Source of the DNA: Ignavibacteriota bacterium
GTDB lineage: Bacteria; Bacteroidota; Ignavibacteria; UBA10030; UBA6906
Length of the DNA: 40,419 bases
Assembly (NCBI GenBank): GCA_003162635.1
Contig: PMNE01000087.1
Coordinates: 69,303-109,721 of the forward strand
Reading direction: 5' to 3'
Positions 3,932-36,611 of this stretch are shown here, piece by piece (the first letter of the stretch is position 1; the number at the start of each line of letters is the position of its first letter). Position numbers and translations under genes: made by a program. A model generated the notes under the pieces. That model had not been told where the DNA came from and made no database searches. It saw nothing but the letters and a program-made list of their open reading frames with translations.

Positions 3932-4340
3932 CATGGGGAGGGGAAGAAGGGATCCATGTCCGGTTGGCGTCTGATGGAGACCTGCCACAGTTGTGAACGG
4001 GGGCTGGAGTCGGCCTGCCGGGGGTACAATCAACGCCAGATCATCAGCAGATCTTCAGCACACCATGAGCACATCCGGAACATCTCTGGGACAGGTCAAT
4101 GCCACATCGGTAGCATACCCGTGTCAGCGGTGTGACAGACCTGTCAATTAAAGTAGACACCCTCTCGCTTTTTCACTAACCGTTTCGCCAAATCTGGGAA
4201 TTCTGCGCATCTTGCTGCCATTGCTGGTAAACATTCTCGAGGTTTTTGACGATTTTGCGATTTTTCTGTCAACTTGAGGTGTTTACTATGATATGGCACA
4301 AAATCTGCTATTTAATCAGGCGGATGAGAGGAACCCAAAC
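3932..4340 (+). promoter_or_regulatory. Non-coding region upstream of merR with an inverted-repeat pair
   Basis: About 400 bases with no convincing gene; the small open frames here lack family features. AGTAGACACC (4152-4161) and GGTGTTTACT (4278-4287) form a 9/10 inverted repeat about 115 bases apart, each preceded by CTGTCAA at a different distance (4141 and 4266). A shorter repeat, GACAG-AC-CTGTC, sits at 4134-4145. TATGAT at 4287-4292 could be a -10 element, about 48 bases before the chosen merR start, but no good -35 is visible at 16-19 bases. MerR proteins often regulate their own promoter, so an operator function is possible but inferred. Confidence 0.3.
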
Positions 4341-4832
4341 ATGAATACTGAAACGACGGTCGACCTGATGCAAAGGACCGGCCAGCGCTACTATACGATC
4401 GGTGAAGCAGCCGACATGACCGGCATTTCCGTTCCCACGATTCGCCTGTATGAGCGCGAAGGCCTGATCGTGCCCATGAGAAAATCCACACGCCACAGAC
4501 TTTTTGACGAAAGTGATTTAGAGCGAATCCGCTCACTCAGGAAGGATATCAACGCGGGGAATAGGGGAATCGCCGGCATCCGCCGACTCATGGGACGCAT
4601 CCCCTGCTGGCAGATAAAAGGATGCTCTGAAGAATCGCGCGACCACTGCCCGGCCTATCTGATCCAGGATTCTCCTTGCTGGATGGTCACCCGAAAATCC
4701 TGGCTGGAGAAGAGCGACCTCTGCAGAAACTGCATCGTGTACCTCGAAGCGTCCAGTTGCGAGCAGGTGCAACGGGCGCTTCAGCAGTATGCCGGCGCAC
4801 CAGACCCGGTGTTGCCCCCCGCGGGGAGTTGA
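4341..4832 (+). CDS. MerR-family regulator with a cysteine-rich (two-CW-like) C-terminus
   Basis: A 163-residue DNA-binding regulator. Residues 18-85 are a MerR winged helix-turn-helix, with YTIGEAADMTGISVPTIRLYE followed by a wing and a short dimerisation helix. The C-terminal 75 residues carry seven cysteines (89, 95, 103, 113, 128, 131, 140) with two PCW motifs and a CRNC pair, resembling the two-CW cysteine-rich module seen on some bacterial sensors. Metal or Fe-S binding, and therefore redox or metal sensing, is inferred. ATG 4341 was chosen because GAGAGGAA lies 8 bases upstream; an in-frame ATG at 4293 would add 16 untypical residues. The target is unknown. The gene converges on the GT2 gene with a 6-base gap, so it is not in that operon. 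Confidence 0.85.
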   Translation: MNTETTVDLMQRTGQRYYTIGEAADMTGISVPTIRLYEREGLIVPMRKSTRHRLFDESDLERIRSLRKDINAGNRGIAGIRRLMGRIPCWQIKGCSEESRDHCPAYLIQDSPCWMVTRKSWLEKSDLCRNCIVYLEASSCEQVQRALQQYAGAPDPVLPPAGS

Positions 4833-4856
4833 ACGCGCTTATCCCTCCGCTGAGGG
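4817..4856. terminator. Possible shared hairpins at the merR/GT2 convergence
   Basis: The palindrome CCCCGCGGGG (4817-4826) lies at the end of merR, and CCCTC-CGCT-GAGGG (4843-4856) lies at the end of the converging GT2 gene. Only six bases separate the two stop codons. Neither hairpin has a clear T tract, so termination here is a guess from position and symmetry. Confidence 0.25.
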
Positions 4857-6113
4857 CTTGACATCGAAGCGGATCGTCTTGTCCCAGGTCCGCTTTTCCT
4901 TCTTCACGTACTCCAACCACCACGCCTTTACCACGATGTAAATCCACGCCTGACAGTACGTGAAATACATCACAACCAGGATCGGCAACTGCTTCACCTT
5001 ATCCTCTCCGTCGTAGGAGATGGCAAGCATCGTCTCAAAGAGGAAAAGGAAGAACGCCATGATCCAGACAAAGGTGTATGGGCCCGGAAGCGAAATGCTG
5101 ACCAGATTCGCGGCACCCAGGATGAAGAGAAGATCCGACGTGACAATCGCAAAGAAAAACACGTAGTACAACAGCAGTGTGTAGAGCACGTCGAACATCA
5201 ACCGCTTGCTCCGGAACTTCGGAATTCGCTTCAGAAACTTCGCCAGGACGTACGAATTCCCCCTCACCCAGCGCGTCCGCTGATGAACCCAGACCCGCCA
5301 TGACTGCGGCTCCTGCTCGTACGTCATCGCGTACGGAACAAACTTGATCTTGTACCCTTCCTGATAAATCCGAATGCTGAGTTCCGAGTCCTCCGTCAGC
5401 GCCTGTTCATCCCATCCTCCGAGCTGGCGGATGAGACGCGTCCACATCACAAAATTCGTCCCCGGGAGCGTGGCGATGTTGTGCATCTGCCACCGTCCGG
5501 CTTGCAGCATCGACTGGAAGCTCAGCGTCTCGATGTTGATGAACTTCGTCAGCAAGTTGACGTTCTTGTTGATGGTTCGGAATTTTCCTATCGCCGCGCC
5601 CAATTCGTTGTTCGTGAGCAGTTGTGCGACGAGATACCGGAGCGAATCCTTGTCCGGTGTATTGTCGGCATCGTAAATGGCGATCACGTCCGAAGTGACC
5701 CGCTGGACGCCGAGATTCAACGCGCGTGATTTGCCCTTCCCCCCCTCACCTTTCGGCACGTCAAAGAGCTCGATCCGGCGATCAGCGCGCGCATAGCCCT
5801 CGATAATGTCCCGCGTCCCGTCGGTGGATCCGTCGTTGATCACCATGATCTTCAACTTCTCCTTCGGATACTCGAGGCGGAGCATCGCTTCAATCGTGCG
5901 GGCGATGACCTTCTCTTCATTATGCGCGGGGATCAGAATGGTGCAGCCGGGGTAATCGAACGCCTTCCCTTCCAGCAGCTTCTTTTCCTTCAACGACTTG
6001 ACGTAATTCAAATATCCGAAAAACGTCAGCACGAACTGGTACCCGATCATGAACCAGATCAGGATGACGGCGACGACAAACAAGAAACTCAAATCAACTT
6101 CGAGGAATGTCAT
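4839..6113 (-). CDS. Processive GT2 polysaccharide synthase (PgaC/cellulose-synthase type)
   Basis: A membrane glycosyltransferase of 424 residues that would polymerise a nucleotide-sugar-derived glycan and move it across the inner membrane. A transmembrane segment (about 10-34) is followed by the GT-A domain: NDGSTDGT (93-100), DAD (148-150), TED (240-242) and QRTRW (278-282), the D, DxD, ED and QxxRW signature of processive synthases. Three or four transmembrane segments lie between about 306 and 398. No PilZ domain is visible. Its ATG overlaps the stop of the upstream deacetylase gene (ATGA, 6110-6113), indicating translational coupling. The pairing recalls PgaB-PgaC, which make poly-N-acetylglucosamine, but the sugar used here cannot be read from the sequence. 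A separate PgaD-like subunit is not present. Confidence 0.9.
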   Translation of the reverse strand: MTFLEVDLSFLFVVAVILIWFMIGYQFVLTFFGYLNYVKSLKEKKLLEGKAFDYPGCTILIPAHNEEKVIARTIEAMLRLEYPKEKLKIMVINDGSTDGTRDIIEGYARADRRIELFDVPKGEGGKGKSRALNLGVQRVTSDVIAIYDADNTPDKDSLRYLVAQLLTNNELGAAIGKFRTINKNVNLLTKFINIETLSFQSMLQAGRWQMHNIATLPGTNFVMWTRLIRQLGGWDEQALTEDSELSIRIYQEGYKIKFVPYAMTYEQEPQSWRVWVHQRTRWVRGNSYVLAKFLKRIPKFRSKRLMFDVLYTLLLYYVFFFAIVTSDLLFILGAANLVSISLPGPYTFVWIMAFFLFLFETMLAISYDGEDKVKQLPILVVMYFTYCQAWIYIVVKAWWLEYVKKEKRTWDKTIRFDVKPSAEG

Positions 6114-9100
6114 GCGTATCGCCGTTTGACGATCTTAAGGATGAGGTACATCGCCGCCAGCATCAGGACGGCAATGACGCCGAAGATGGCAATGGCGTTC
6201 GACGACCAGAATGAGGTCATATTGATCCCGTACGAAAACAGATCCCCTGTCACGACGGACACCGTATGTACTCCCGGCGGCAGCGACAATGTATAGCAAT
6301 CGTTCCCCTTCATGGCCGCAAATTCATATGCCTGTCCGTCAAGCGCAACCGCAGTCGGCTCCCTGTTGAGCGCGACGAGTGTCCGCACGTCGGATGCATA
6401 GGTGAAGAGCACCGTCCGCGTGCCGTACGCAACCGACAGCAGGTTGCCGGTCAGGGAGAGTATCCGCGCTTCCAGGTCGTGTGTGGAAAAGGCGCCCCCC
6501 TGATTCTGCCCGAACGAGACCTCGTGTACACCCGCGGGAATCAGAAACACGTTGTCGCGCGACGGCGAAAGAGGTACGCCGTCGATTTGTATCTCCTTCG
6601 TCTCCAGCGGAAGTTTGAGACTGAAGGAATAGGGGGAAGAGACTCCATATCCCGCTGCGTTGCGCCGGTATTGTACCTCGCTTGCCAGCGCGTAGGGGAA
6701 CATCTTGATATCCTGCGGGTTCACGCTCGATTCCGAGTAAATCGTGAGCCGGGGAGCTCCCAGCGATGCGGCCCGGACAAGATCGAAACTCTCCGTTCCT
6801 GTCTGGGTCAGTGTTGGGAACGGCGTAATCTTGTCGGGTTTCCGGAATTGACCGATGTTCAAATCGAGCATCAGTTTCCCCGGGTCGCTCAACAGTTCCT
6901 TATACCGCTTTCCGATATCGAGGTAACGAAGAGGGTCGGTGGACCAGAGCGGTTCGGGGTCCTCCACCTGAAGCTGGAATCCGTACGTCCGTTGAAGCGC
7001 AAGAATTGATGGCATGTCAACACCGAGGTTCTCGCGCAACGACGGAGTTCCATACCCGTCCATGGCCGTCACAATGATTTGAAACCCCGGGCGCCCTGCA
7101 GCGACCCCGGAGAGCATCTCCAGGATCGTCTTGTACACCCCTTCCAGGGTGCGGACTCTGTACTCCGTCACCATCCGCCGGGCGTCGGGATTGACCTTCC
7201 AGTAGAACGAAGAAGTGGAATCGAGAACTGCAGGGAGTTCAAACCCGTATCTCTTCCGGAACTCCTTCTGCGCCGACGGATGCATCGGGGCAAACAACAG
7301 TGGATCCTGGAAACCTCGTCCGGCGTCAAAATGGAGCTCAGCAATATTGACGCCGTCAAAATCGAACTGTGAGAGGAGTGTGCGATACTCCTCCGTCATT
7401 GCCTGAACGCACGCAGGGTCGGTCAATGCGACGGGGTAACGCCACGACGCATGGAGAAGATCCTCCCCCTTGAAGTTCTTCTCACGCCATTCGGGATGCT
7501 CTGTGTAAAATTTTACGCTGACCTGCGGCGGCTCCAGCCAGGCATACACGATGATGCCGTTCGCGTGCGCCAATGAGATGAGGCGCTTGTAGTCGTAGGT
7601 GTATTTCGCGTACTGGTGCCAACCCGATACGTGAAGGACGCGGACCCCAAGTCGCACCCATTGCTTCACCAATGCCTCGACACTCATCGTCCTGGCACGG
7701 GACCCCGGCTCGAAGTACACTTCAAGATTATCACGACGGACCACCGGGCCAAGCCGGAAGTACCTGTTGATGTACTCCAGAAGATAAGGATAGAGACTGT
7801 ATCCCTCCTTGCTGTACGGATCGAACCGCGTGGAAATGTACAGGAGGCTCCCCTTGCCCACCGATTTCCCGATCACAAGCGGCGCTTCGGTGGCCGCATC
7901 GGTACAGAACACTCCTTCAATTCCCTCCGCGTCAAACTTCGTGGCGAGCTCGGGAAACCTCCACGTGATCCGCTCCTCCGGGAAGTAACGGTCGCGGACC
8001 TGCGTCACCTTCAGCCGTGTTGTGCTCGACGTGATACCAAGTTCCTTCGCGATTTCCGTGGGCATGTCGGTGATCACGTGCCCGCCTCCCTGCACAAACT
8101 TCACGATCGCGTCGTAGTCCGCATCGCGAAGCGAGTCAACAAACGTGTACGGAATTATCAGCAGGTTGTAACCACCCAGTTGCACGGACTGTCCGGCGAA
8201 GATTGTGTCGACCAAAATGTTCACGCTCCGCAAGACAGAGGCAAACGACGCCTGGTCGTTCTCAGCAGCCCCCTCGGCAAAGTGGTTCCAGAGAATCGCC
8301 GCCTTCGCCTCCTGCCACGATTGTTCCTGGCCGAAGACACGATCCATGAATTTGCGTGCACCGTTGACAAATTGCGCGGCAACAGAAGGCGGCTTCTCAT
8401 GGAACTCCACCGCCTCCGCCTTGTAGATCTGCCCCGCGTCGAGATCCACCGAGCGGCTGACGGGTCCTTTGATCCGCTTGTCCGACGTCTCCTCCGTAAG
8501 GACTTCTCCGTTTCGGTCGAACGTCGTTTCCTGCAGGTACTGATCGTCAAGATTCAGAGTGAAATCCTGCTTTCCCGTCAGCATGATCCTGTCTTTCATG
8601 CGTGTCTGCAGCGACAGGTCCCGCACATCCATGTAGGTGTAACCCAGCGCCTCGACACCTTCGACAATTTCCTTCAGAAGGGCCGGGTCGACAAACGCAT
8701 GGAAGAAGCAGGACGCAAAACCATCCCGCACGATGAGATTTGCCTTCGCTCCCGCAATGATCTCCCGCACCGCCTGTTCCCCCACACGCGGGTCGGGATC
8801 CAACGGAACATAGCCAAGGTTCTCCGGAATAATGCGCTGGCCGTAAATATCCCTCTGGATCATGTAGGGAAAGAATTGGCCGTCGTCGATGTCCTCAATG
8901 ACAAGCCGCTGTTCCATCGCCGTGTTGAAGTACTTGCCGATAGTCTCGTACAACTTCAACGAACCCGCGTAGTGTGGAGTCTCCCATACCAGGGGGTAGA
9001 GGCCGTTCTTCATGAATTCCTGTATCCCCATGTCAAGCTTCCGCTCGATGCCTTCGACGGTCTCTTCTTTCACCGGTTTGCCGGTATTTTCGTCCCAAAA

Positions 9101-10057
9101 TTCATAGTCAACCGCCGTGACACCACGGTACTGATGCGTCACGCCGTGCATCACGAGCGTCCCGCCGTTCTGGGTCATGTAGCGCAGCGCGTCAACAAGC
9201 TCCGGCTTGTCTGACAGGCTGATGCGGATCCCTTCCGTGGGGTCGACGTAGAATGGGATCACGCCGACAAGGAAGGGAATATTCCTCGAAGAGAGGATAT
9301 CTGCAATGTTCCGCAGTTTCGCAGGATCTTCCAGCGGGTTGACATCTTCAATGCGTATGAGGGCGGTGTGCGATTCCTCGTGCTGCTGGCCCAGGATATC
9401 GTGCAGCATATCGGCAAAGAACAGATACCGGTCGGTCTCCGTTGCGGAGGCAAACGGACAATCGGCAATGTAGGTCAACATCCCCGACCGAACCATGTAG
9501 GGCACTTCCCAGCGTTTGGTGCTCGAACTCGCCGTTGCGATCACCGTCACCTTTTTTCGATCCAGGATCTCCACCATATTGATGTTCGGTTCCCCCTTCG
9601 TAAACGTTTTCTCTCCCGCCCTGACGACATCGAAGGTGCTGAGGGAATCGATGTGGGTGACAGCAAAACCGAAATTCTTCCTCACGTCGGGTCTGGCGGA
9701 GAACTCTTTGAAGCCGGTATCCATCCAGATCACGGGGACTGTGGAGGAGACAACATCATCCATGAAGCGTGACGGCGGCTGATACCTGGGGCTGTAGCCG
9801 ATGAAGACGACAAGCGTGTAGCGGGAGAACGTGTGCGGGACGTATTCGTTGACGCCGAGTACCCTGTAGGTTGCATTGAAATGACCAAGGAGGTTCGCCA
9901 TTTCCCGCCCACGGGATATCGCCTGATTCTTCAGGGACGTCCCCCCCTCCACGACGATCAGGACATTGGCAGCTTCATCATTTCCCAACAATGAACTCCA
10001 GGCCGCACTCCAGGCACAGAGGAGAAGCACAGTCACCGCGTACAGGAATCGCTTCAC
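6110..10057 (-). CDS. Exported DUF2334 deacetylase + glycoside-hydrolase-like protein with C-terminal membrane anchor
   Basis: A 1315-residue envelope protein that probably deacetylates and perhaps trims the glycan made by the downstream GT2 synthase. A signal peptide (about 1-24) precedes a region of unassigned function, then a DUF2334/NodB-like domain (about 225-480) with the expected metal or catalytic residues: Asp238 in IED, His304-x3-His308 in HGVTHQ, His362 in ETPHYAG. A mid region (about 600-770) looks like a glutamine-amidotransferase-like or beta-galactosidase-trimerisation-like fold. From about 789 a TIM-barrel glycosidase-like domain of the GHL/YngK type begins (ALVKQWVRLGVRVLHVSGW, then DFDGVNIAELHFD). 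One transmembrane helix ends the protein (about 1283-1312). The start was set at GTG 10057, which has AGGGGG just upstream and gives a clean signal peptide; the frame is open to 10384, but the extra residues look non-coding. Catalytic acids of the hydrolase part were not assigned. Confidence 0.82.
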   Translation of the reverse strand: MKRFLYAVTVLLLCAWSAAWSSLLGNDEAANVLIVVEGGTSLKNQAISRGREMANLLGHFNATYRVLGVNEYVPHTFSRYTLVVFIGYSPRYQPPSRFMDDVVSSTVPVIWMDTGFKEFSARPDVRKNFGFAVTHIDSLSTFDVVRAGEKTFTKGEPNINMVEILDRKKVTVIATASSSTKRWEVPYMVRSGMLTYIADCPFASATETDRYLFFADMLHDILGQQHEESHTALIRIEDVNPLEDPAKLRNIADILSSRNIPFLVGVIPFYVDPTEGIRISLSDKPELVDALRYMTQNGGTLVMHGVTHQYRGVTAVDYEFWDENTGKPVKEETVEGIERKLDMGIQEFMKNGLYPLVWETPHYAGSLKLYETIGKYFNTAMEQRLVIEDIDDGQFFPYMIQRDIYGQRIIPENLGYVPLDPDPRVGEQAVREIIAGAKANLIVRDGFASCFFHAFVDPALLKEIVEGVEALGYTYMDVRDLSLQTRMKDRIMLTGKQDFTLNLDDQYLQETTFDRNGEVLTEETSDKRIKGPVSRSVDLDAGQIYKAEAVEFHEKPPSVAAQFVNGARKFMDRVFGQEQSWQEAKAAILWNHFAEGAAENDQASFASVLRSVNILVDTIFAGQSVQLGGYNLLIIPYTFVDSLRDADYDAIVKFVQGGGHVITDMPTEIAKELGITSSTTRLKVTQVRDRYFPEERITWRFPELATKFDAEGIEGVFCTDAATEAPLVIGKSVGKGSLLYISTRFDPYSKEGYSLYPYLLEYINRYFRLGPVVRRDNLEVYFEPGSRARTMSVEALVKQWVRLGVRVLHVSGWHQYAKYTYDYKRLISLAHANGIIVYAWLEPPQVSVKFYTEHPEWREKNFKGEDLLHASWRYPVALTDPACVQAMTEEYRTLLSQFDFDGVNIAELHFDAGRGFQDPLLFAPMHPSAQKEFRKRYGFELPAVLDSTSSFYWKVNPDARRMVTEYRVRTLEGVYKTILEMLSGVAAGRPGFQIIVTAMDGYGTPSLRENLGVDMPSILALQRTYGFQLQVEDPEPLWSTDPLRYLDIGKRYKELLSDPGKLMLDLNIGQFRKPDKITPFPTLTQTGTESFDLVRAASLGAPRLTIYSESSVNPQDIKMFPYALASEVQYRRNAAGYGVSSPYSFSLKLPLETKEIQIDGVPLSPSRDNVFLIPAGVHEVSFGQNQGGAFSTHDLEARILSLTGNLLSVAYGTRTVLFTYASDVRTLVALNREPTAVALDGQAYEFAAMKGNDCYTLSLPPGVHTVSVVTGDLFSYGINMTSFWSSNAIAIFGVIAVLMLAAMYLILKIVKRRYA

Positions 10058-12045: not shown

Positions 12046-13587
12046 GTGCCCCTTATTCGCCGCGCGCTCATGAGTGTTTCCGACAAGCGCGGTCTGCCCG
12101 AGTTTGCACGTGCGCTCCGTGCCTTGAACGTCGACATTATATCCACGGGAGGCACCGCATCCGCGCTGCGCGAGGCCGGGATCGATGTCACCAATGTCTC
12201 CGATGTGACGGGTTTTCCCGAGATCCTCGATGGACGCGTCAAGACGCTTCATCCGAAAGTGCACGGAGCGTTGCTCGCAATTCCCGGGAACCCGGAACAC
12301 GATCGGCAGGTCCGTGATTTGTGTATCGACCCCATCGACATGGTCGTCGTGAATCTGTATCCCTTCGAACAGACGGTGGCGCGCGAGGGTGTAACTTTCG
12401 ACGAAGCGATCGAACAGATCGATATCGGCGGACCGGCCATGCTCCGCTCCTCTGCCAAGAATCACCGGTACAAGGTGGTGATAGCCGATCCTGATCGCTA
12501 TGCCTCGATCATCGAAGAGATGAAACGGAGCGGCGGGAGCGTTTCCGAAGATACCTGCGCATCGCTTGCCAAAGACGTGTTCCGCCATACCGCGGCATAC
12601 GACGCGGCGATCGCGCACTATCTTGACAGCCCCCATGCGACGCAGGGGGCGCAGCCGCCGGTTCTCACCGTCAACGCAGCCAAAGAGCTCGATCTCCGCT
12701 ACGGCGAGAACCCCCACCAACGCGCCGCCCTCTACGGCTCCTTCACATCGCTCTTCCAAAAATTGCATGGGAAGGAATTATCGTACAATAATATCGTCGA
12801 TATGGCGGCAGCGGCAACGCTCGTCGCGGAATTCGAAGACCCGACCGTCGCGATCATCAAGCATACCAATCCCTGCGGCGTCGGATCCGCCGCAACCATC
12901 GTTGAGGCGTACACGAAGGCATTGGCAACCGACCGCGACTCCGCTTTTGGCGGCATCGTGGCGATGAACAGACCTCTCGACATGGCCGCTGCGGAAGAAA
13001 TCAACAAGATCTTTACCGAAGTCATCATTGCACCGGCCATCCCGGACGCTGTGCTGGAATTTCTTCGTAAGAAGAAGGACCGGAGGATCGTATTGCAAAC
13101 GGCCGACATGCGCGAGCGGCGCGAGCCCGACATCCGGAGCGTCCCGGGCGGCTTCCTGCGACAGGACCCCGATGGACCGCTCACGAAAGGCGAAGCGTTC
13201 CGGGCCGTGACGAAACGGGCTCCATCGGCAACGGAGGCGGATGCACTTCGTTTCGCCTGGCGCGTTGCAAAGCACGTGAAGTCCAACGCTATCATCTATA
13301 GCGGCATCGACAGAAGCCTGGGGATCGGGGCTGGACAGATGTCGCGCGTCGATTCTGCCCGCATTGCCGTTTTGAAAGCCCGCGAAGCCGGCCTTTCTTT
13401 GGATGGGTCTGTGGCGGCATCCGACGCCTTTTTCCCGTTTCCCGACGCCTTGCTGGAGATCGTCAAGGCCGGCGCCACCGCGGTGATTCAGCCGGGCGGT
13501 TCGGTACGCGACGGCGAGGTGATCGCCGCCGCAAATGAGAACGGCATCGCAATGGTGTTTACAGACATCCGGCATTTCCGGCACTAA
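12046..13587 (+). CDS. purH: Bifunctional AICAR transformylase/IMP cyclohydrolase
   Basis: Catalyses the last two steps of IMP synthesis: formylation of AICAR and ring closure. The 513-residue protein has the N-terminal IMP cyclohydrolase domain ([34 protein letters not shown]) and a C-terminal AICAR transformylase domain with RYGENPHQ near 220 and KHTNPCG at about 271-277. The start is GTG 12046; it gives the conserved [14 protein letters not shown] start, whereas the next ATG (12070) would remove a conserved strand. The gene follows purN and lies 39 bases before mreB, so the rod-shape genes may be read through from the purine promoter. Confidence 0.97.
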
Positions 13588-25502: not shown

Positions 25503-26765
25503 TCATTTCTGGTCCCCTTGGGCGAGAACGCGCTTGACAGCTTCCTTCACCCTTTCAACGGTCACACCATTAATGCAGTGCGCATGAGAGGACGAACAGC
25601 GCTCCCTGCAAGGAGCTGACACTTGTGCGGGCTGAAGAACAGCAGAGGCGGCAGATCGAGGACCGAAGCGAACTGGGGATTGAACATCCGATTCATCGCC
25701 GTGTTCCGGGTGACAAGAGATTTCAATCACTGGGATGCCCGAAGCAGCCGCAAGATGGAGAGGCCCGGAATCATTGCCAATGAACAGACGACACTTCTTG
25801 AACAGCGCGCAAGTTTCCCGTAATGACGTACGACCCGATAGATTGTGAGATCGAGTACCGATCCGAGAAGCAAGCATGTCGCCAAGACGCACATCGCGTA
25901 ATCCACCCACAATGATGATGTCGGCGTCGAATTGCTGGCTCAGCCAAACACCAATTCGCGAGTAGTGGTCCAGAGGCCACATCCTTCTCGGGTGCCCAGC
26001 TCCGGGAGCAATGGCAATGAGAGATTTCGCGGTAGGAACGTTAGAATTCTTTAGAAGCAGTTCGACAGCATGAATATCTTCCTCTGTAATCCAACTCTCG
26101 GGTTTGCCATTGCTCGGATCCCCACCCAAGTAACGTATCACATCTAAGTTATGCTCAATCTCGTGTTTCACCTCGTTTCCATCGACGAGATCCGTATAAA
26201 ACCGATCGAACCCCTTATTGAAGTAGGATTTCCTTCTGTTTGCCTGCTCACTGAAGCCAATGCGCCTTCGAGCTCGCAGGAGATACAAGAGAAGGCCCGC
26301 ATAGGAACTATCTGTATCCCATCGCGGCTGAATTCCCAACGTGGGCCTTTTCTCCCATGCCAGCTTGCGTGACATCTTCGCCGCACGAAACGGAAGAACA
26401 AAGGGCCGCAGCACACGCGAACAATGGGCGGCGAATGGAATGACCTCGTCAACATGAGGGCATCGCTCCACAAGATTCAGGAGTGCGTCCTTCACAACAA
26501 GGGTTATTCTTGCAGCAGGGTAAAGTTTCCGCAGCTCTTTCAGGAAACCTGTCATTAACACGATATCACCGATCTCATCAAGTCGAACAACGACGATGTG
26601 ATCATCTGGAAGCTTCTGGGTTTCAGGAAGCGGGGATTCAATCCTCCGCTTCGCCAAGAGCTCTCCCACAAAGAGACATACAACCGCATGGATCTGGATG
26701 ACAACACTCGATATCATCCAAGCGAAAGGAACCTTGCTCGGTTGCTCTCTCCCTTCAATTGGCAT
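25503..26765 (-). CDS. GT9-family (heptosyltransferase-like) glycosyltransferase
   Basis: A GT-B fold transferase of the ADP-heptose/LPS heptosyltransferase family, 420 residues, last gene of the polysaccharide operon. Motifs: VVVRLDEIGDIVLMTGFL at the start of the first Rossmann domain, APGAGHPRRMWP in the second, and FIGNDSGPLHLAAASGIP, the usual nucleotide-sugar loop. A hydrophobic stretch (about 17-40) precedes the catalytic domain. A cysteine-rich segment near the end (PCRERCSSSHAHC) is common in this branch. ATG 26765 was chosen because GGGGA lies about 8 bases upstream and it overlaps the GT4 stop by 11 bases; the frame runs further upstream inside the GT4 gene. Donor and acceptor sugars are unknown; a true heptose role is not implied. 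Confidence 0.87.
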   Translation of the reverse strand: MPIEGREQPSKVPFAWMISSVVIQIHAVVCLFVGELLAKRRIESPLPETQKLPDDHIVVVRLDEIGDIVLMTGFLKELRKLYPAARITLVVKDALLNLVERCPHVDEVIPFAAHCSRVLRPFVLPFRAAKMSRKLAWEKRPTLGIQPRWDTDSSYAGLLLYLLRARRRIGFSEQANRRKSYFNKGFDRFYTDLVDGNEVKHEIEHNLDVIRYLGGDPSNGKPESWITEEDIHAVELLLKNSNVPTAKSLIAIAPGAGHPRRMWPLDHYSRIGVWLSQQFDADIIIVGGLRDVRLGDMLASRIGTRSHNLSGRTSLRETCALFKKCRLFIGNDSGPLHLAAASGIPVIEISCHPEHGDESDVQSPVRFGPRSAASAVLQPAQVSAPCRERCSSSHAHCINGVTVERVKEAVKRVLAQGDQK

Positions 26766-28035
26766 TGGAATGATCCCCAGTCTGAAGACCCATGATTTCT
26801 CTAAACAATATAGCGTACTGTGCTTGCACCCGATGCTTCGAAAACCTTTCTTCAACAATCTTGCGTGCGCGAGACGACATTTGAGGCAACAGAGAGGCTT
26901 TGTTGAATGCATCCTGAATAGCGTTCACCAATTGATCCGGAGCCGCGGGCTGGACAGCCCAGCCCAATCCTTCCTCTTCCAGAAGATGCGCAAGGTCCGA
27001 TGCGGGATCCGTTGCAGCAATTATCAGTTTCCCAGCCGCCAAGTTATTGTATGCGCGACTCGGCACGGAGACTCCGCACATCCCCTGCACGAAAGCGACT
27101 ATAGCAACGTCACAAGCATTGAGGGAAACCACCAAATCCTTCCGGGGTTGGGGTGGAAGTACTGTTATGTTGCTCAAGGCCAGTGCATCTACGGTCATAC
27201 GAAGCCATGGCTCCTTCGCTCCCCATCCAATGAAGAGAAAATGGATACTCCTGTTTCCATGAAGTGCCTTGGCACATTCCACAATATTCTCTATGTCATG
27301 TGTTCTGCCCATATTGCCGGAATACTGTATGATAAACTTCTCGGTCAATCCTAGTTCTCGAATTATTCGATTGTCTTGCCGAGGGAGAGGAACAATTTCG
27401 TCCAGATCCGCCCAATTGGAGATATACACGATCCGCGGCTGGATGCCATCTATTCTTCTCGTAACCAATTCCTGCATATCTCGGCCCAACACAATGATGC
27501 AATCTGCGGCTTTGTACAGTCGGCCTTGCAGTGCGCCGAGCACTCTCATGATTGTCCCATTTTTGTCAAGGATGCCACCCGCGGAGAGCGCTTCAGGATA
27601 GACATCCTCGATTCGTAAAATCAACGTAGCGGATCGCAAGCGACAGACCACGGCGGCAAGAAAGGGGAGCGTGGGAGGATTAGTTACTACGAACATGATG
27701 TCGCCTCGACGAATCCGCATTAGCGCATTGAAGCAGATCGATATGGTAGTTGTCACAAGATTGATGAGGCGAAAAAGGAGGATATCTTTGTTGAATGTCG
27801 TGCCCCAGCACCGACGTATGTCGACGCCATTTCGAGCTTCCTTAGCCGCGGCTCGAATGCCGCGAGCGAGGTATGTAGGTTGCGCACACAACACCTGTAC
27901 GGAGAACTCACGCGCCAGACCTTCAGCAACATGAGTAACATAATAACCGGTCGCAGATTCTTCAGGAAAATACAGCTCCGATAGAATCCAGATCTTCTTT
28001 TCCATGGATTTCAGCATTTTGAAGTCAGTGAACAA
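26755..28035 (-). CDS. GT4-family glycosyltransferase (WbuB/WcaI-like)
   Basis: A retaining GT-B transferase of 426 residues for surface polysaccharide assembly. The N-terminal domain has SELYFPEESATGYYVTHVAEGLA, typical of WbuB/WcaI proteins; the C-terminal domain begins at YSGNMGRTHDIENIVECA and includes PSRAYNNLAAGKLIIA, the donor-binding region. The start is probably TTG 28035: GGGAGG (28044-28049) sits exactly 8 bases upstream, whereas ATGs at 28017 and 28005 have no binding site. It overlaps GT9 and follows the GT2 gene by about 80 bases. WbuB proteins often use N-acetyl-fucosamine, but the substrate here cannot be inferred. Confidence 0.88.
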   Translation of the reverse strand: MFTDFKMLKSMEKKIWILSELYFPEESATGYYVTHVAEGLAREFSVQVLCAQPTYLARGIRAAAKEARNGVDIRRCWGTTFNKDILLFRLINLVTTTISICFNALMRIRRGDIMFVVTNPPTLPFLAAVVCRLRSATLILRIEDVYPEALSAGGILDKNGTIMRVLGALQGRLYKAADCIIVLGRDMQELVTRRIDGIQPRIVYISNWADLDEIVPLPRQDNRIIRELGLTEKFIIQYSGNMGRTHDIENIVECAKALHGNRSIHFLFIGWGAKEPWLRMTVDALALSNITVLPPQPRKDLVVSLNACDVAIVAFVQGMCGVSVPSRAYNNLAAGKLIIAATDPASDLAHLLEEEGLGWAVQPAAPDQLVNAIQDAFNKASLLPQMSSRARKIVEERFSKHRVQAQYAILFREIMGLQTGDHSNAN

Positions 28036-28116
28036 ATGCTTCGCCTCCCGGCCCTCTCTTCCGCCCCGTCTCTGTCACTGCCGTGCTACGTACGCTATAA
28101 AGAATCCAACACTATC

Positions 28117-29049
28117 TCATGATGCAGGCTTGGACCGCGGGAGCTGCATCCCTCGTCCTTCGCAGAGACGATTTCGGTAAAAGTCGACGATCCCCCACCA
28201 CGCAGCACGTGCCAGGAGTGGTTGCGAAATCCGCCAAGTCACGCATTTCAACAAAGTTGTGATCAAAACGTACATTCTTGCGACGATAGCCTGCGGCCCG
28301 CTCATAACTATACGAGTCAATAGCAGCCGATTACGCACAGTATAGTACAGCGGCCTTGCAGTTTCATTGCGATGGATGGTCTTGTGATATATCCGTGAAG
28401 ATGGAACATAGAGCAATCGGAAGCCCTGACGAATGAGTCGTGTTGACAGTTCTGTGTCGTCGACATACAGAAAGAATCTGTCGTCATAAATCGCTTCGGG
28501 TGAAAGCGCTGATGCCCTCACGAGCGATAAACAGCCCGAAACGAACGTTACCTCCGACAATCCTCGATCAGGGACGCTTGCAACATTGTGGTCAAGGTCG
28601 TCAACTATTCCTGTTGCGCGCCAAGGCACAAACCGCCCCCCTGCGTACCATATTCGTTCGGTCTCGGGGAAATAGCAAATTAGTCCGCTGGCTGCGGCGG
28701 CTCCTGGATCTCCTTCCAAAGCCTCAACGAGAGGACCCAGAAAGTTGGGTTCAACGTAAGTGTCGTTGTTGAGAAGCAGTATATAATCCGGATGCTGTTG
28801 AAGAAGGACTCGGTAGCCGGCATTGTTACCACCCGTAAATCCTAGATTTCGACCCATTTCAAGGATCTGAACATTCGTTCCGGCAAGACCATGTCGCAGC
28901 TTTGACAGCCATCTTTCGTCCGAACCGTTGTCAACAACAAGCACATCAAGTGGTTCATATTGAGTCCGGAGAAGAGATTCAACGGCACCAAGTGTATCGT
29001 CGGTGCTGTTATAATTCAGAAAAATGCAGCCTATCCGAGGACTCCTCAT
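28117..29049 (-). CDS. GT2-family rhamnosyltransferase-like glycosyltransferase
   Basis: A 310-residue GT-A transferase. FLNYNSTDDTLGAVESLL, VVDNGSDE and LLNNDTYVEPNFLG carry the early strands and the DxD-like NND motif; YVDDTELSTRLIRQGFRL is the ED-type catalytic region, followed by a hydrophobic tail. The pattern is the rhamnosyltransferase-like branch of GT2, and rfbB/rfbC nearby would suit a deoxyhexose donor, but this is inference. ATG 29049 forms an ATGA overlap with the flippase stop; ATG 29058 in the same frame is an alternative three codons longer. Confidence 0.88.
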   Translation of the reverse strand: MRSPRIGCIFLNYNSTDDTLGAVESLLRTQYEPLDVLVVDNGSDERWLSKLRHGLAGTNVQILEMGRNLGFTGGNNAGYRVLLQQHPDYILLLNNDTYVEPNFLGPLVEALEGDPGAAAASGLICYFPETERIWYAGGRFVPWRATGIVDDLDHNVASVPDRGLSEVTFVSGCLSLVRASALSPEAIYDDRFFLYVDDTELSTRLIRQGFRLLYVPSSRIYHKTIHRNETARPLYYTVRNRLLLTRIVMSGPQAIVARMYVLITTLLKCVTWRISQPLLARAAWWGIVDFYRNRLCEGRGMQLPRSKPAS

Positions 29050-30482
29050 GGTCTCCATGCACGCAATGCCTCAAAAATGATCCGACGCTCATATCTTGAA
29101 TAACCCACAACAAAGACCAGGGAAAAGTAGCAAACCAAAATCACCGCAACACCCAGCCAGCTCCAGGCCAGATGCGAGTATATCCCAACCGCAGAGGCCA
29201 ACCCAAGAAGTGCAAACGGAAGGAGCCGATCAAGGGACGTCCATTTTTCCAGAAACGCATTCCGAGAAAAGAGAATGAAAGCACAGCCAAGTATAGCATT
29301 GGTAACGAATGAGACAGATGCTGCACCAATGACACCGAACCGCGGAATTGTATACATGTTCATTGCGACGTTTGTTATCGTTGCACCAATCACAAGCCAC
29401 GTGCGAAGATGCTGACGATTGGAAGTCGTTAACATAAGTCCGCTCATCTCCACAGAGTATCGCACCGCCACCGTCAGTCCAAAGATCCGCATCACGGGAA
29501 CTGCTGCGGCGTACCTATCCAAGCCATACAGAAGACTGATGATAAGCTCGGCACCAGCAAACAGGAAGAAACCTACCGCCAACCCAACGTGAAAGAGAAT
29601 CCTGCTCGTGACCGAACCGACAAGGGCCCATTTTGCCCTGTCAACGACAAAAAGCCTCGACAATCCAGGCAACGTGGCGTTCACGGTAATATCCGAAAGA
29701 ATAAGAGTAACGCCTATTATCCGAAAGACAGATTGATAAATGCCGACGTCGTGGTCACCACGCCACATCGATAGGAGGACTGTATCGATAAGAAAATAGA
29801 GATTACCAAAAACAAAAAAAAGACCAAATATCACTATCGTCTTCCATGCAGAACTTATCCATGCTGGGTCAAATACAGGTCGAACACTTGTAATCAAGTG
29901 AGAAGACTTTGCAACGGCAAGTGCAACCCCCACAATACGTGAAGCAACAAATGCGAAGGCAACTTGATAGACGCTTCCCCCCGTCAGAGCTATGATCAGC
30001 AAAGTGACCAATAGCGCGACATTGATTATGAGTGTAATCTGCGATTCATGATGCAGTTCATCGTGACCGCGGAAGAAGGCAAACGCAAAATTCTGCAATG
30101 CGGAGAAAAACAAATACATGCTAAAGATGTAAATGAGAACCTGAGTCTCGCGGGAGAAGGTCTGCACGAGGGGATAAGCACACATCAACAAGGAAGCAAC
30201 CAGAGTCAACACAATCTTAAGGCCTAGCATCCGAGGCGTAATGTATGATACCGACTGCCGATCTCTGCCAATTTCCGTGGTCAACAGCAGATCAAATCCA
30301 AAGTCAGCAAAGAGCGTGAAGACGACAGCAAGAGTATGCGCTGTTGTAAACTGGCCGAACTGGACCGGACCGTAGAAGCGAGCGACCATAACGAAGAGCA
30401 CCGCATTCGCCCCGAGTCGGATTACCGAAGACAGCAAAGAATAGAAACCATTTCTGGTTAATGTTTGCAGCAATCTTGACAA
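29046..30482 (-). CDS. Wzx-type polysaccharide flippase (MOP superfamily)
   Basis: A 478-residue membrane protein with about 12-14 hydrophobic segments that would move lipid-linked repeat units to the periplasmic face. The N-terminus (GFYSLLSSVIRLGANAVLF, then YGPVQFGQFTTA) is typical of Wzx/RfbX proteins. The start is TTG 30482: an in-frame TAG four codons upstream rules out anything earlier, and the next internal ATG would remove the first transmembrane segment. AGG lies about 9 bases upstream. A 130-base gap separates it from the polymerase gene. Confidence 0.87.
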   Translation of the reverse strand: MSRLLQTLTRNGFYSLLSSVIRLGANAVLFVMVARFYGPVQFGQFTTAHTLAVVFTLFADFGFDLLLTTEIGRDRQSVSYITPRMLGLKIVLTLVASLLMCAYPLVQTFSRETQVLIYIFSMYLFFSALQNFAFAFFRGHDELHHESQITLIINVALLVTLLIIALTGGSVYQVAFAFVASRIVGVALAVAKSSHLITSVRPVFDPAWISSAWKTIVIFGLFFVFGNLYFLIDTVLLSMWRGDHDVGIYQSVFRIIGVTLILSDITVNATLPGLSRLFVVDRAKWALVGSVTSRILFHVGLAVGFFLFAGAELIISLLYGLDRYAAAVPVMRIFGLTVAVRYSVEMSGLMLTTSNRQHLRTWLVIGATITNVAMNMYTIPRFGVIGAASVSFVTNAILGCAFILFSRNAFLEKWTSLDRLLPFALLGLASAVGIYSHLAWSWLGVAVILVCYFSLVFVVGYSRYERRIIFEALRAWRP

Positions 30483-30612
30483 GCGAAGAACCTATCGTTA
30501 TGAGAGCAGGAATTCTGCTTCCATACCAAAAGGAAGCAGGCACATCAACGAATACCCCTCAACAGTGCCATCATGCAATTAACAATGGAGCGTATTTTTT
30601 TAAGCTACGACT

Positions 30613-31986
30613 TTATGTTGTCGATGAATCTTGGGGGAGGACGGTAATACCATTGGGAGCTATGAAGCGGCTAATCACCAAGAGAACGGCGAATTCAAAC
30701 CAGACAATTTCAATGTACCATATGTCAGTGGTAGAGAGCAGCAACAAATAGCTCAACGCGCTCCAGAAATAGACCGCGACCATGGGTACTTGTTTCCTCA
30801 CTCGATTCGCCTTGTGCAAAACTCTGTAAAGAAAGGCGACAAACGGAATGAAGCCAATAATTCCCACGTCCGTCAGCACATTCAGCCAAATATTCAGCGG
30901 CGTAGCCATAGTCGAACGGTCGAGCCCCCCCAGGGCAGGATACCAAAAGGCAAAGATGCCAGGACCGACGCCCGCCCATGGGTGATTCATGAAGACGACG
31001 GCCCCAATTGCAATGCGGGATACGCGATCAATTGTCGAGGGATCCCTGAATTCAAAGATGTTGGATATCCTATAGCCAACCAGGCTTCCCAAAGGTGTGA
31101 CAACCAATACTGCGGCAACGCAGCACACAAGTGCTACTACGCCAATCCCACCAACAGGGGAGCGGCGAATTCGGGATATCAAAAAAAATGCTGCCAAAAC
31201 AGCCAACGTAAGGATTCCAGTGAGCGATACGTTTATGAGCACAGCAAAGCCGTAGATCGCAAGAAGTGCGTATGATGTCCACCTTGCACCAATTTTCACA
31301 TTCCGTGCGGTTCCCACGATAAGCTTGACTATCAATGGAGCAAGAAAAAAACCAAACGAGGATGGTTCTTTGAAGATCCCGGAAGCGCGAAAAACGCGTT
31401 CAGAACCAATCTTCTGGAGGTAGTATGCACCTTTTCCGAATGTTTCATTCGTCGGTTCAATTCGAGTCAAAACATCGCTTCCAAGAATCGTATATGTCAG
31501 GAACTGGAGGATACCGAACAACGCAACGATTGCACCACACCAGATCTGTATGACAAAAATCCTTCTTATGACATCTTCCGAAGTGCTTGCAAGTACGTTC
31601 ACAAACGTGAAAAAGACCGCCACAACATAGGCCACTCGCAATGTTGTGCTCACAGCGCGATCGGCTTGCGTCCGACCAAGCCAAGTCATATTCGCATCAG
31701 CATCCAGAATGCGGTATGTGCTGCAAACGTAGGCCACAAGAAAGAGGAAAAGATACGTCATGGACCGTTCCGTCCAGAACTCGCCGTTATGCTGAAGAAC
31801 TTCGGCAAGCAACAGGGCGGCGAGAAGAACAACAATCCAAAGCGGCACAGAATCCCTTGAGAAGAAAACCGAAAACACCATAAGGGGATACAGCGCAGCA
31901 AATGCGTAGAGGAGCCAATCCTTAATGCGGAATTCCCGAATTGGAGACTGAGACGGAGATCTTGGTGAAAAAGCACTCATGCCCAT
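30613..31986 (-). CDS. O-antigen ligase/polymerase (Wzy/WaaL-like) membrane protein
   Basis: A 457-residue polytopic protein (about 11-12 membrane segments) of the Wzy_C/O-antigen ligase family. It probably polymerises repeat units in the periplasm. The large periplasmic loop holds MNHPWAGVGPGIFAFWYP, which matches the family hallmark H/NPxxGxGpG. GIFKEPSSFGFFLAP is also typical. Polymerase is favoured over ligase because it sits between the wzz-like and wzx-like genes. TAGGA lies about 8 bases before the ATG. The short codes Wzy and WaaL cannot be separated by sequence alone. Confidence 0.85.
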   Translation of the reverse strand: MGMSAFSPRSPSQSPIREFRIKDWLLYAFAALYPLMVFSVFFSRDSVPLWIVVLLAALLLAEVLQHNGEFWTERSMTYLFLFLVAYVCSTYRILDADANMTWLGRTQADRAVSTTLRVAYVVAVFFTFVNVLASTSEDVIRRIFVIQIWCGAIVALFGILQFLTYTILGSDVLTRIEPTNETFGKGAYYLQKIGSERVFRASGIFKEPSSFGFFLAPLIVKLIVGTARNVKIGARWTSYALLAIYGFAVLINVSLTGILTLAVLAAFFLISRIRRSPVGGIGVVALVCCVAAVLVVTPLGSLVGYRISNIFEFRDPSTIDRVSRIAIGAVVFMNHPWAGVGPGIFAFWYPALGGLDRSTMATPLNIWLNVLTDVGIIGFIPFVAFLYRVLHKANRVRKQVPMVAVYFWSALSYLLLLSTTDIWYIEIVWFEFAVLLVISRFIAPNGITVLPQDSSTT

Positions 31987-31995
31987 TCACCTGTC

Positions 31996-33228
31996 CTACT
32001 TAAAGAGACGCTTGATGCTCAGTTCGCGCCGGATAAACTTCAGATTCTCACTGACTTCTGGCACTTGACCGTTGTTTACTCGTCGAAGCATTTCAACAAA
32101 AAGAGCGAGGAAATATGCGGCAATAAAGCTCACGAAAGCGATAAGGATGAGATTGAGCACTCTCTTAGGTTTGGCTGGACGTTCTGCGGGCACGGCTTTG
32201 TCCAAGACGACCACACTCGCAGTAGTCTTCTGCTCTTCGATTTTTGCTTGTTCATACAGAGGAAGTATCAGTTCCATCAATTTGTTCTGAATTTCCACAT
32301 CTCGAAACCGTCTAACATACTCCATGCCGATTTCTGGAGCATCTTTGAATGCCGGAAAAACAACTGAGGCATCGCCGTATGCACCCCCGTTTTTCATTAG
32401 ATACAACTGCTTCTTGATTTCCTTCAGTTCTATCTCCGCCGACTGTCTCCCGGGGTTGTCTTCGCTCGTCGTATTTGTCAAGATATCAAGCTGGATTTGC
32501 TTCAACCGGACCTGAGATTCTAGCACGGCTGCCGTTTGCACAGCGGCTTTAATTTGGTCAGACACCGAATAGATACCATAGCGCTGCTGCAGATTTCGAA
32601 GGTCTTCCTCAGCATTTTTCAAGTCGGCGACGTTTTGATTGTATCTCCTTTCAAGAAACTCCCGATTCCCGCGAGCTTCTGTCGTTGACATATCAAGATA
32701 TGCTGCATTAAGCGCGTCGACCAGATAGTTCGCCATTTCTGCTGCCCGCTTGGCGTCTGTATCAAAGACCGTAATTTCGACTGATACGTCTTCCTTCCCG
32801 GGTGAGAATGCGACGTTGTCTTCCAACGACTTGATGGCTTTCTCCATCGATTCAACGCCGTAAACGGACTTGAGACCAAAGTGTGTGACTACAGCCTCCA
32901 TGACACGACGACTACCCAAAATTGCCTGGAATTGGGAAAGATCATCCGCAGAACCACCAAGTCCCAGGGTCCGTAAAGAAGAAGTCGCTCGAGTGATAGA
33001 TGAAAGAAGTCCAAGGGCATTCTTTTGCTGAGGCGGCATGATGACTGCAACCGCCTTATACCAGCGCGGAAGGACGAAGAAAAGAAGAATTATCCCAACA
33101 AGAATCGAGATCCCAACAAAGCGAACAATCAACCTCTTGTTCCTTGCAAGAACAGCAATATACTCAACGACATTTGCCATCCGGAGACCAGTTTGTCCCC
33201 CGGCATGATTTTCCTGGGATGAATCCAC
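31996..33228 (-). CDS. Wzz-type chain-length determinant protein
   Basis: A 410-residue inner-membrane polysaccharide co-polymerase. Two transmembrane segments (about 33-53 and 370-390) flank a long periplasmic part with coiled coils (about 170-250); PPQQKNALGLLSS follows the first segment and PAERPAKPKR precedes the second, as in Wzz/Wzc N-terminal domains. There is no tyrosine-kinase domain, so it is not a full Wzc. The start is GTG 33228, with GGAGGA just upstream. Its stop is 9 bases before the polymerase ATG. Confidence 0.9.
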   Translation of the reverse strand: MDSSQENHAGGQTGLRMANVVEYIAVLARNKRLIVRFVGISILVGIILLFFVLPRWYKAVAVIMPPQQKNALGLLSSITRATSSLRTLGLGGSADDLSQFQAILGSRRVMEAVVTHFGLKSVYGVESMEKAIKSLEDNVAFSPGKEDVSVEITVFDTDAKRAAEMANYLVDALNAAYLDMSTTEARGNREFLERRYNQNVADLKNAEEDLRNLQQRYGIYSVSDQIKAAVQTAAVLESQVRLKQIQLDILTNTTSEDNPGRQSAEIELKEIKKQLYLMKNGGAYGDASVVFPAFKDAPEIGMEYVRRFRDVEIQNKLMELILPLYEQAKIEEQKTTASVVVLDKAVPAERPAKPKRVLNLILIAFVSFIAAYFLALFVEMLRRVNNGQVPEVSENLKFIRRELSIKRLFK

Positions 33229-33344
33229 GCTTCCTCCGTCGTTTTGAGCGTCAGCAGAGTTCGCTCTTGATAAGCGCTGCCGATGTATGAGGTCCTACAG
33301 GTTGTATCATTTCACAGAGACAGCAACGACAAAATGCAATACGA

Positions 33345-35003
33345 CTACTTCTTCAATTGTACCGCTAGAATTGCAAGGCTCACTGCAACGCCGATGATTG
33401 ATGCTGTCTGCCCTATGATATTCACATAATAACCGAAGTTGTGTTCAACCACCATTGGCACCCAGATGTAGTCTCCTTCCTCCAACCGCGTGTCATTTGG
33501 GTCGAGCCATTGTTTCGTGCTGGCCTTGACGATTCGAATGTCCCCTTTTCTGGCACGATCCGTCAAGCCACCCGCCCTCGCGATGTAGTACTCCCAGTCC
33601 TTCCCGGATTCGAAGGTAACATGACCGGGTAACACAACCTGACCAAATACATACACGGTGCGGTCGACCGGAGGAATTGTTATGACGTCGCCATCCTTCA
33701 AGAAAACGTCTTGTGTTGTGTCTTGATGCTCAAATAGCGCAACAAAATCTGCCGACATTCGCTCCCCTTGTAGCCGAGATGCAGTTTCAACGCCATAGTA
33801 AAGAGAGTCATCATGCGGAACACCACCTGTGAAGCTTCCGAGTCGTTCAGATTCGATTTGCGTCAACGATGCTCCCTGCCTCACTACCATCGACCGAGAC
33901 AACGCAGCTCTCGATGTGAATCCGCCCGCCATCGCAATAACCAAACTGAGCTTAGTCCCTTCTTGCGATATCGGATAGCCACCCGGATAGTTGACTTCAC
34001 CGTTCACCCACACTCTGGGATCGCCCCGCAAGTCGACCTTCTGTCTTACGATCAACCGATCACCTGGCTGAAGCGGCAGGTCGGTCCTCCCGTCAGTCAA
34101 ATTCAGCACCATATGCTCCGTTTCTTTTCCCGATCGATCATAGCGATAGAGTTCGACGCTATCCAAGCGAGCATTGTCAGTAAATCCATACGCAAGAGCC
34201 AACATCGTGTGCAAACTGTCCTCTGCCACATATTCCAATCGTCCGGGAAGATGTACGGCCCCATAAACACCAATCACGTCCCGCGCCACATTCATCGAGG
34301 GAACAACAATCACATCCCCTTCCCGTAAGTATGGATTCAGCGTGGAAATCCTTTCCGCTGCGTACCGCGCAAGATCAACTCGCTGCTCTCTTCCATCTTT
34401 GTGGCGAACCAGAATCAGACGGTGAGATTGGCCGGAACGAGCACCTTGCAGGGCAAGCTCATCTTCGACTTTCTGGGAACGCATGACCTGGTTTGCCGCA
34501 TCAATTGCACCTGACACGCGATCAGTGACCGAGAGCGTGTACGTCCCTGGCACAAGGATTTGACCGAGAACTGTTACGTTCACGGATCTCGGTACTGACA
34601 GCGTCACTGTCGCGCGCGTAGAAATGAACCGCTTATGGATCTGATCCAGAACAGCCTCACGTGCCTTCGTAAGGGTCATATCCGATAACCTGATTTCTCC
34701 CACTGAAGGCACAACCAACGTCCCTTCCGGTGTAACCGTAACATTAGTTACGAGGGGAGGACTCGTCAAGATGGTCACCGCAAACCCGTCCGACGGCCCC
34801 ACGATATACTCGTCGGGATTTACGACTGATTCGAGCGGGACAATCCGCGGGGCAACTGACGATTGAACCGATGGAAGAACACTTCCTTTGCCCATGGTAT
34901 TGAACAGATCATAGCCAATATCATTCGTTGACTGCTGGGCATCGGCAGGTCCGGCAATCAATAACATCGCCAGAACGAACAGGAGAGGGACAGTTCCTCG
35001 CAT
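33345..35003 (-). CDS. Polysaccharide export protein (Wza-like) with several SLBB domains
   Basis: A 552-residue exporter that would form the periplasmic/outer-membrane channel. A signal peptide (about 1-22, cut near ADA-QQ) is followed by the polysaccharide-export domain (about 63-140, starting EYIVGPSDGF) and four SLBB-like units starting near VLGQILVPGTY (145), VYGAVHLPGRL (246), VNGEVNYPGGY (333) and VFGQVVLPGHV (452). A hydrophobic helix (about 526-548) ends the protein. E. coli Wza is a lipoprotein with fewer SLBB units; here no lipobox cysteine is seen. The start was placed at ATG 35003, one base after the rfbB stop; ATG 35018 is also possible. Longer starts lie inside rfbB. Confidence 0.88.
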   Translation of the reverse strand: MRGTVPLLFVLAMLLIAGPADAQQSTNDIGYDLFNTMGKGSVLPSVQSSVAPRIVPLESVVNPDEYIVGPSDGFAVTILTSPPLVTNVTVTPEGTLVVPSVGEIRLSDMTLTKAREAVLDQIHKRFISTRATVTLSVPRSVNVTVLGQILVPGTYTLSVTDRVSGAIDAANQVMRSQKVEDELALQGARSGQSHRLILVRHKDGREQRVDLARYAAERISTLNPYLREGDVIVVPSMNVARDVIGVYGAVHLPGRLEYVAEDSLHTMLALAYGFTDNARLDSVELYRYDRSGKETEHMVLNLTDGRTDLPLQPGDRLIVRQKVDLRGDPRVWVNGEVNYPGGYPISQEGTKLSLVIAMAGGFTSRAALSRSMVVRQGASLTQIESERLGSFTGGVPHDDSLYYGVETASRLQGERMSADFVALFEHQDTTQDVFLKDGDVITIPPVDRTVYVFGQVVLPGHVTFESGKDWEYYIARAGGLTDRARKGDIRIVKASTKQWLDPNDTRLEEGDYIWVPMVVEHNFGYYVNIIGQTASIIGVAVSLAILAVQLKK

Positions 35004-35004
35004 T

Positions 35005-36532: not shown

Positions 36533-36611
36533 AATCAAAAGTCTCCGCCTGCGGTTCCTCCATCCCGCCTCAAGAGACGGTCCACTTTCCAGAACTGAAC
36601 TGAAATGTCGT

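Follow-up and report, generated by a model that had tools for sequence, protein, structure and literature searches.

Our analysis concerns a gene pair on the minus strand of a 40,419-nucleotide stretch (the window) of contig PMNE01000087.1 from an Ignavibacteriota bacterium. The upstream gene encodes an exported protein that joins a DUF2334 domain to a glycosidase-like domain (hereafter the fusion protein), and the downstream gene encodes a processive family 2 glycosyltransferase (GT2). The TGA stop codon of the former shares bases with the ATG start codon of the latter (Table 1). The open frame of the fusion gene reaches position 10384, and the GTG start at 10057 is supported both by a preceding purine-rich, Shine-Dalgarno-like run (aaaaggggg) and by the alignment, in which homologues start at approximately the same residue. 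The coordinates, length of 1315 residues and ATGA overlap agree with those of an earlier sequence-only reading, which proposed a PgaB/PgaC-like module of different make-up.

Table 1. Features of the DUF2334-glycosidase/GT2 gene pair in the window, and barrel-like genes at related loci
Feature	Position	Strand	Basis
1315-residue exported DUF2334-glycosidase fusion, coding sequence	6110..10057	-	GTG start
424-residue processive GT2 synthase, PssC-like, coding sequence	4839..6113	-	Pfam, motifs, Listeria PssC match
ATGA stop/start overlap of fusion and GT2	6110..6113	-	junction reads gcATGAca
Signal peptide, ~residues 1-26	9980..10057	-	read from sequence
Class I GATase-like (flavodoxin-like) domain, residues 28-226	9380..9976	-	AlphaFold2 model, fold matches
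DUF2334 / NodB-type deacetylase domain, residues 229-480	8618..9373	-	Pfam, fold, conserved residues
GH42M-like (beta-galactosidase trimerisation-type) domain, residues 586-742	7832..8302	-	Pfam, PDB profile, Foldseek
TIM-barrel glycoside-hydrolase-like domain, residues 775-1126	6680..7735	-	fold match to PgaB GH153 domain
C-terminal beta-rich domain, residues 1127-1270	6248..6679	-	secondary structure of AlphaFold2 model
C-terminal transmembrane helix, ~residues 1273-1315	6113..6241	-	model and alignment
Outer-membrane-barrel-like genes (alignment A5)	L022 13363-14700; L079 13165-14430; 26 other loci	mostly same strand as GT2	

The fusion protein was modelled with AlphaFold2 in two parts, residues 28-560 (predicted local distance difference test score, pLDDT, 92.6; 47 homologues) and 556-1315 (mean pLDDT 89.5; 48 homologues). 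Its GATase-like domain resembles the GH42 middle domain (5dfa, Z 14.6) and the amidotransferase of aminodeoxychorismate synthase (8rp0, Z 13.9). The adjoining domain matches Pfam DUF2334 (PF10096) over residues 232-467 (E 1.7e-50; 171.9 bits against a cut-off of 26) and has the fold of CE4-type deacetylases (Z 16-18.8), with 3rxz at Z 18.8 (221 residues, 2.8 Å) and ArnD at Z 17.6. Residues Glu237, Asp238, His304, His308, His362, Asp445 and His453 are identical in 47/47 sequences of the N-terminal half; the four that the sequence-only reading had named (Asp238, His304, His308 and His362) were thus correctly numbered and are invariant. By analogy with CE4, CE18 and CE21 enzymes, Asp238, His304 and His308 would be the metal ligands, with Glu237 probably serving as base and His453 as acid. 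Motif 3 (WETPHY) lacks an arginine, and Arg235 in motif 1 probably corresponds to His526 of PelA. The top Foldseek match of the N-terminal half is PelA (9cgy, E 2.5e-11), although this similarity is at the domain level only, given a TMq of 0.47 and a root-mean-square deviation (rmsd) of 13.6 over the whole. A search for DUF2334 in phages gave no match.

In the C-terminal half, the GH42M-like domain scores just below the Pfam cut-off (PF08532, E 3.6e-5), is matched by a PDB profile (4oif, E 1.4e-4) and is also found by Foldseek; the GH42 middle domain was the sole match in a sequence-based search of solved structures. Pfam leaves the TIM barrel unnamed, with GHL6 appearing only at E 0.1. By fold, PgaB glycoside hydrolase domains take all of the first five places, 4p7l (GH153) giving Z 26.0 over 318 residues with an rmsd of 3.9 and 10% identity, but the lead is modest since GH42 enzymes come next at Z 24.3 to 22. 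Comparison by sequence revealed no kinship to PgaB (profile of the C-terminal half, hhalign probability 0.9%), and a profile comparison with YbcH/DUF4434 gave no match. The barrel motif FDGVNIAE aligns with FDGILFHD of E. coli PgaB, which places Glu907 at the position of Asp466, on our reading the counterpart of Asp474, the catalytic acid in Bordetella (PMC5933820). Glu907, Asp901, Asp1000 and Asp1033 are invariant in 48/48 sequences and Glu1032 is present in 46/48. At the C-terminus the model shows an extended hydrophobic helix with KRR behind it, conserved also in the alignment.

Both the NodB-type and the GHL-type folds, together with the C-terminal membrane anchor, had been anticipated by the sequence-only reading, and the two folds are now predicted with high confidence; the GATase-like and GH42M-like domains had gone unmentioned. 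A secreted paralogue of the C-terminal half is encoded elsewhere in the same genome (locus L120, contig C85, 5998-8301, minus strand). It comprises GH42M-like and barrel domains (29% identity) and keeps the motif as WDGVDVAE, has neither DUF2334 nor the transmembrane helix, and adjoins NfeD- and stomatin-like genes on a contig from which GT2 is absent.

The GT2 carries the signature of a processive synthase, namely D94, D148xD150, TED242 and Q278RxRW282, all kept in 12/12 aligned sequences. Its best NCBIfam match is PgaC_IcaA, yet it scores only 155.9 bits on this model, against a cut-off of 422.3. Among named sequences the highest scores were obtained with an E. faecalis protein (355 bits, 43%) and Listeria PssC (333 bits, 41% over 413 residues), followed by Acinetobacter (257-259 bits), Priestia (251), IcaA (110), PgaC (108), BcsA (82) and NfrB (27). 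A maximum-likelihood tree sets PgaC and IcaA apart, and a constrained clade uniting them with the present GT2s was rejected by the approximately unbiased test (p-AU 0.001). On the strength of the model score, the roughly threefold higher bit score of PssC and this test, a PgaC-like synthase was rejected; by sequence, the enzyme is nearest to the PssC type and lies outside PgaC/IcaA. The sequence-only comparison with PgaB/PgaC therefore holds for the barrel fold and for the pairing of synthase with deacetylase, but not for the synthase itself. PssC-like GT2 genes with a wecB gene nearby also occur in Acinetobacter (L118, 5857-10979; L115, 6857-12803), and L118 also has a BcsB-like gene after its GT2.

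The pairing is conserved across genomes. Among 296 genomes of the phylum, 13 full-length fusion homologues were found, this genome included, and in 13/13 a GT2 gene lies beside the fusion gene, in one case across a gap of about 900 bases. This gap (locus L033) contains short tandem repeats at approximately 12270-12600, whose translation in one frame is EITTSGNENESS(V/A)V. When the scan was widened to 84,980 species genomes, 354 candidate relatives emerged and 80 were retained; these come from Ignavibacteria, Kapaibacterium, Kryptoniota, Bacteroidales, Acidobacteria, a spirochaete bin and others (names are those of metagenome bins). The check that the earlier reading had proposed, whether the GT2 gene is always adjacent, comes out in its favour: wherever a locus has room, this gene comes immediately 3' of the fusion gene and on its strand, the other loci stopping at a contig edge (73 loci in the GT2 cluster). 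Full-length homologues of 42-76% identity retain the entire architecture and the adjoining GT2, which argues that the pairing is more than chance. With both folds predicted and the linkage to GT2 established, the combination of a synthase with a deacetylase/hydrolase remains the best reading of the pair.

An outer-membrane-barrel-like gene lies nearby in 28 related loci, mostly right after the GT2 gene on the same strand; the family resembles SlipAM and further barrel families only weakly. In the window, the 3' neighbour of the pair is a convergent MerR open reading frame (4293-4832, plus strand), and no open reading frame corresponding to the pgaA porin or the pgaD partner stands beside the pair. 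A separate surface polysaccharide locus, recognised by eye from flippase-like, polymerase-like, chain-length, Wza-like and dTDP-sugar genes, occupies positions 25503-38837.

The closest known system is Pss of Listeria monocytogenes (pssA-E), with which Bacillus subtilis ydaJKLMN is grouped here from the literature alone. The Listeria locus that we examined (L112, in a record labelled as a plasmid but chromosome-like) encodes a membrane protein, a DUF2334-related protein, a GT2, a BcsB-like protein and a GGDEF protein, which is the pss operon order. Its polymer is a chain of beta-1,4-linked N-acetylmannosamine (ManNAc) that bears galactose branches, and PssB is named as the deacetylase (PMC6307706, PMC5422440). 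PssB (4479-5972) is only distantly related, with a DUF2334 match below the Pfam cut-off (E 5.3e-5) and an hhalign match (E 2e-7, 111 columns). Since pssB precedes pssC, DUF2334 beside a GT2 does have a precedent in a named system; the earlier statement that no named system was known with DUF2334 in such a fusion needs this amendment, although its limitation to the fusion holds in the literature that we covered. The two systems share a PssC-like GT2 and, directly before its gene, the gene for a DUF2334-related extracytoplasmic protein anchored at its C-terminus. In contrast to PssB, the DUF2334 domain in the window has kept every catalytic residue and shares its polypeptide with GH42M-like and TIM-barrel domains, and the hosts are Gram-negative. 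BcsB-like (PssD) and GGDEF (PssE) genes were found neither beside the pair nor among the recurrent neighbours shown.

Three other systems share part of this arrangement. As in PgaABCD of E. coli, which makes poly-N-acetylglucosamine (PNAG), a deacetylase and a glycoside-hydrolase-type barrel are combined in one exported protein alongside a processive GT2, and the barrel is by predicted fold nearest to GH153, with Glu907 at the catalytic Asp466 position. However, the synthase falls outside PgaC by score and tree, the deacetylase belongs to DUF2334 rather than to the CE4 sequence family of PgaB, and the fusion has additional GATase-like, GH42M-like, beta-rich and transmembrane parts. With PelA (CE21 and GH166) the fusion shares a GATase-like domain directly N-terminal of a NodB-type deacetylase. 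In PelA, by contrast, the hydrolase is N-terminal rather than C-terminal and the metal-binding motif is D-x-D, whereas the metal aspartate of the fusion directly follows the putative base (Glu237-Asp238), as in CE4. The Pel polymer is made by a GT4 enzyme, PelF, and not by a GT2. The NGR system of E. coli (NfrB-NfrA-YbcH with WecB) resembles the present loci in its links to wecB. Unlike NfrB, the window GT2 (424 residues, 27 bits) has no MshEN cyclic di-GMP or C-terminal regulatory domain; the window also has no NfrA, and the barrel has no profile match to YbcH.

Evidence on the donor sugar comes from gene neighbourhood. In 29 loci (26/71 of those with room), the pair is immediately preceded on its own strand by a wecB-type UDP-GlcNAc 2-epimerase gene, an adjacency that changes state 7 times on the fusion tree and is found in close kin of the window protein. 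Outside the fusion group, a Comamonadaceae plasmid (L108, 4119-13065) encodes, in order, WecB, an NfrB-like GT2 (40%), a small open reading frame, a DUF2334 protein, an NfrA_C/TPR protein and a DUF4434 (YbcH family) protein. NGR components thus meet a relative of the fusion N-terminal half, a two-domain unfused protein with 33% identity over 449 columns (E 1e-73), and by its gene content this locus is an NGR-like system plus a putative deacetylase. A Streptomyces plasmid likewise carries a DUF2334 relative (35% identity) beside GT2 and wecB. Both loci provide independent support for the wecB link. On a Burkholderia plasmid, a DUF2334 gene (L109, 7233-8876) lies among two diguanylate cyclase genes, with neither GT2 nor wecB detected within 8 kb. 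For E. coli NfrB with WecB, a ManNAc polymer has been proposed by authors who argued from wecB adjacency (PMC8669472, PMC8669469). The wecB links and the kinship with PssC make ManNAc a more likely donor than GlcNAc, the sugar that a PgaB/PgaC-like module would imply, and on these sequence grounds we lean, by no great distance, towards ManNAc as the donor. The mere presence of wecB in a genome proves nothing, because the gene is so common in the phylum, and was rejected as support: among fusion genomes without an adjacent wecB, 38/40 still carry one, against 262/296 genomes in the phylum. A comparison restricted to wecB matches of at least 450 bits (11/13 fusion genomes against 34/283 others, Fisher p 2e-8) was not used, as the cut was set post hoc and is confounded by kinship.

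Taken with the structural models, these comparisons make it probable that the pair constitutes a two-gene, synthase-dependent exopolysaccharide module of Gram-negative bacteria, related to Pss, in which an intact deacetylase is fused to a PgaB-like hydrolase. WecB would make UDP-ManNAc, the likeliest donor, and the GT2 would polymerise N-acetylhexosamine from the UDP-sugar at the inner membrane, extruding the chain into the periplasm. The fusion protein would reside there, anchored beside the synthase by its C-terminal helix. Its DUF2334/NodB domain would remove part of the N-acetyl groups in a metal-dependent reaction, after which the PgaB-like barrel may cut or grip the partly deacetylated chain. 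The model for these steps is PgaB, which acts on PNAG by deacetylating it and then cutting or holding the chain (PMC5933820). In relatives, the outer-membrane-barrel-like family (alignment A5) is a candidate exporter.

Several observations weigh against this interpretation. The order among PssC, the Acinetobacter sequences and the present clade is not settled in the GT2 tree. No porin gene was found in the window, and the A5 profile has no match in the genome, although the family is so divergent that absence is unproven. With regard to ManNAc, the related genomes share a history, so that 26/71 does not amount to 26 independent events; the window pair has no adjacent wecB, the single copy in the genome lying elsewhere; the gene is near-ubiquitous in the phylum, as noted above; and the donor of PssC may differ from that of its homologue here. 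Moreover, in the alignable part of PssB the metal triad is lost (Asp238 to Gly, His304 to Asn), so the closest named relative provides no record of a deacetylase step. Listeria PssB may, to judge from these substitutions, be a pseudoenzyme, though reviews call it a deacetylase.

The state of PssB bears on the possibility that the enzyme domains of the fusion have no catalytic role or act at a different step, the protein serving in the periplasm as a scaffold along which the chain is guided, a role that degenerate PssB may have in Listeria. The E. faecalis counterpart (L113, 5403-6983) also seems degenerate, with metal-binding residues lost, and yet both genes are retained in their operons; the barrel of PgaB, too, binds polymer. 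We nevertheless consider a scaffold quite improbable, since invariance of the metal triad (47/47) and of the barrel acidic residues (48/48) across diverse homologues argues for selection on catalysis.

A module of the PNAG type, in which poly-GlcNAc is the product of the GT2 and the fusion does the work of PgaB by deacetylating and hydrolysing it, would account for the nearest solved fold of the barrel (Z 26.0), the deacetylase-then-hydrolase order and the best NCBIfam match of the GT2. It is unlikely, however, as the GT2 reaches only 155.9 of 422.3 bits on that same model, PssC is three times closer in bits and grouping with PgaC was rejected; the hhalign probability between the C-terminal half and PgaB is 0.9%, and a link to wecB is unexpected if the polymer is GlcNAc. 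A further reading, a PelA in rearranged form whose substrate is a polymer rich in N-acetylgalactosamine, is very unlikely; it might be suggested by the top Foldseek rank of 9cgy (E 2.5e-11) and possibly by two PelA-like traits, the lack of arginine in motif 3 and, in motif 1, Arg235 against His526. The PelA match is confined to the domain level (TMq 0.47, rmsd 13.6), the position of the hydrolase is reversed, the synthase is a GT2 where Pel has the GT4 PelF, and no PelD/E/G-like genes occur among the recurrent neighbours.

We found no published description of the fusion, and no clear function for DUF2334, in the open-licence literature; what is new is the fusion with its apparently intact DUF2334 enzyme, rather than the placing of DUF2334 next to a GT2. 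If the module does act as a Pss-related deacetylating system, DUF2334 would gain a testable role, deacetylating outside the cytoplasm an amino-sugar polymer that a GT2 makes, and three ManNAc-linked machineries so far studied apart (Listeria Pss, E. coli NGR and the loci of Bacteroidota and Acidobacteria) could be viewed in one comparative frame through GT2, WecB and DUF2334. More tentatively, and with the balance still tipped against it, the product may be a widespread Gram-negative, partly deacetylated and hence cationic poly-N-acetylmannosamine, with a PssC-like synthase drawing its substrate from WecB and a single bifunctional deacetylase-hydrolase processing the chain. Such a polymer would be without precedent, as would a function assigned to an active DUF2334 enzyme, and the module would predict a matrix polymer of mostly uncultured bacteria.

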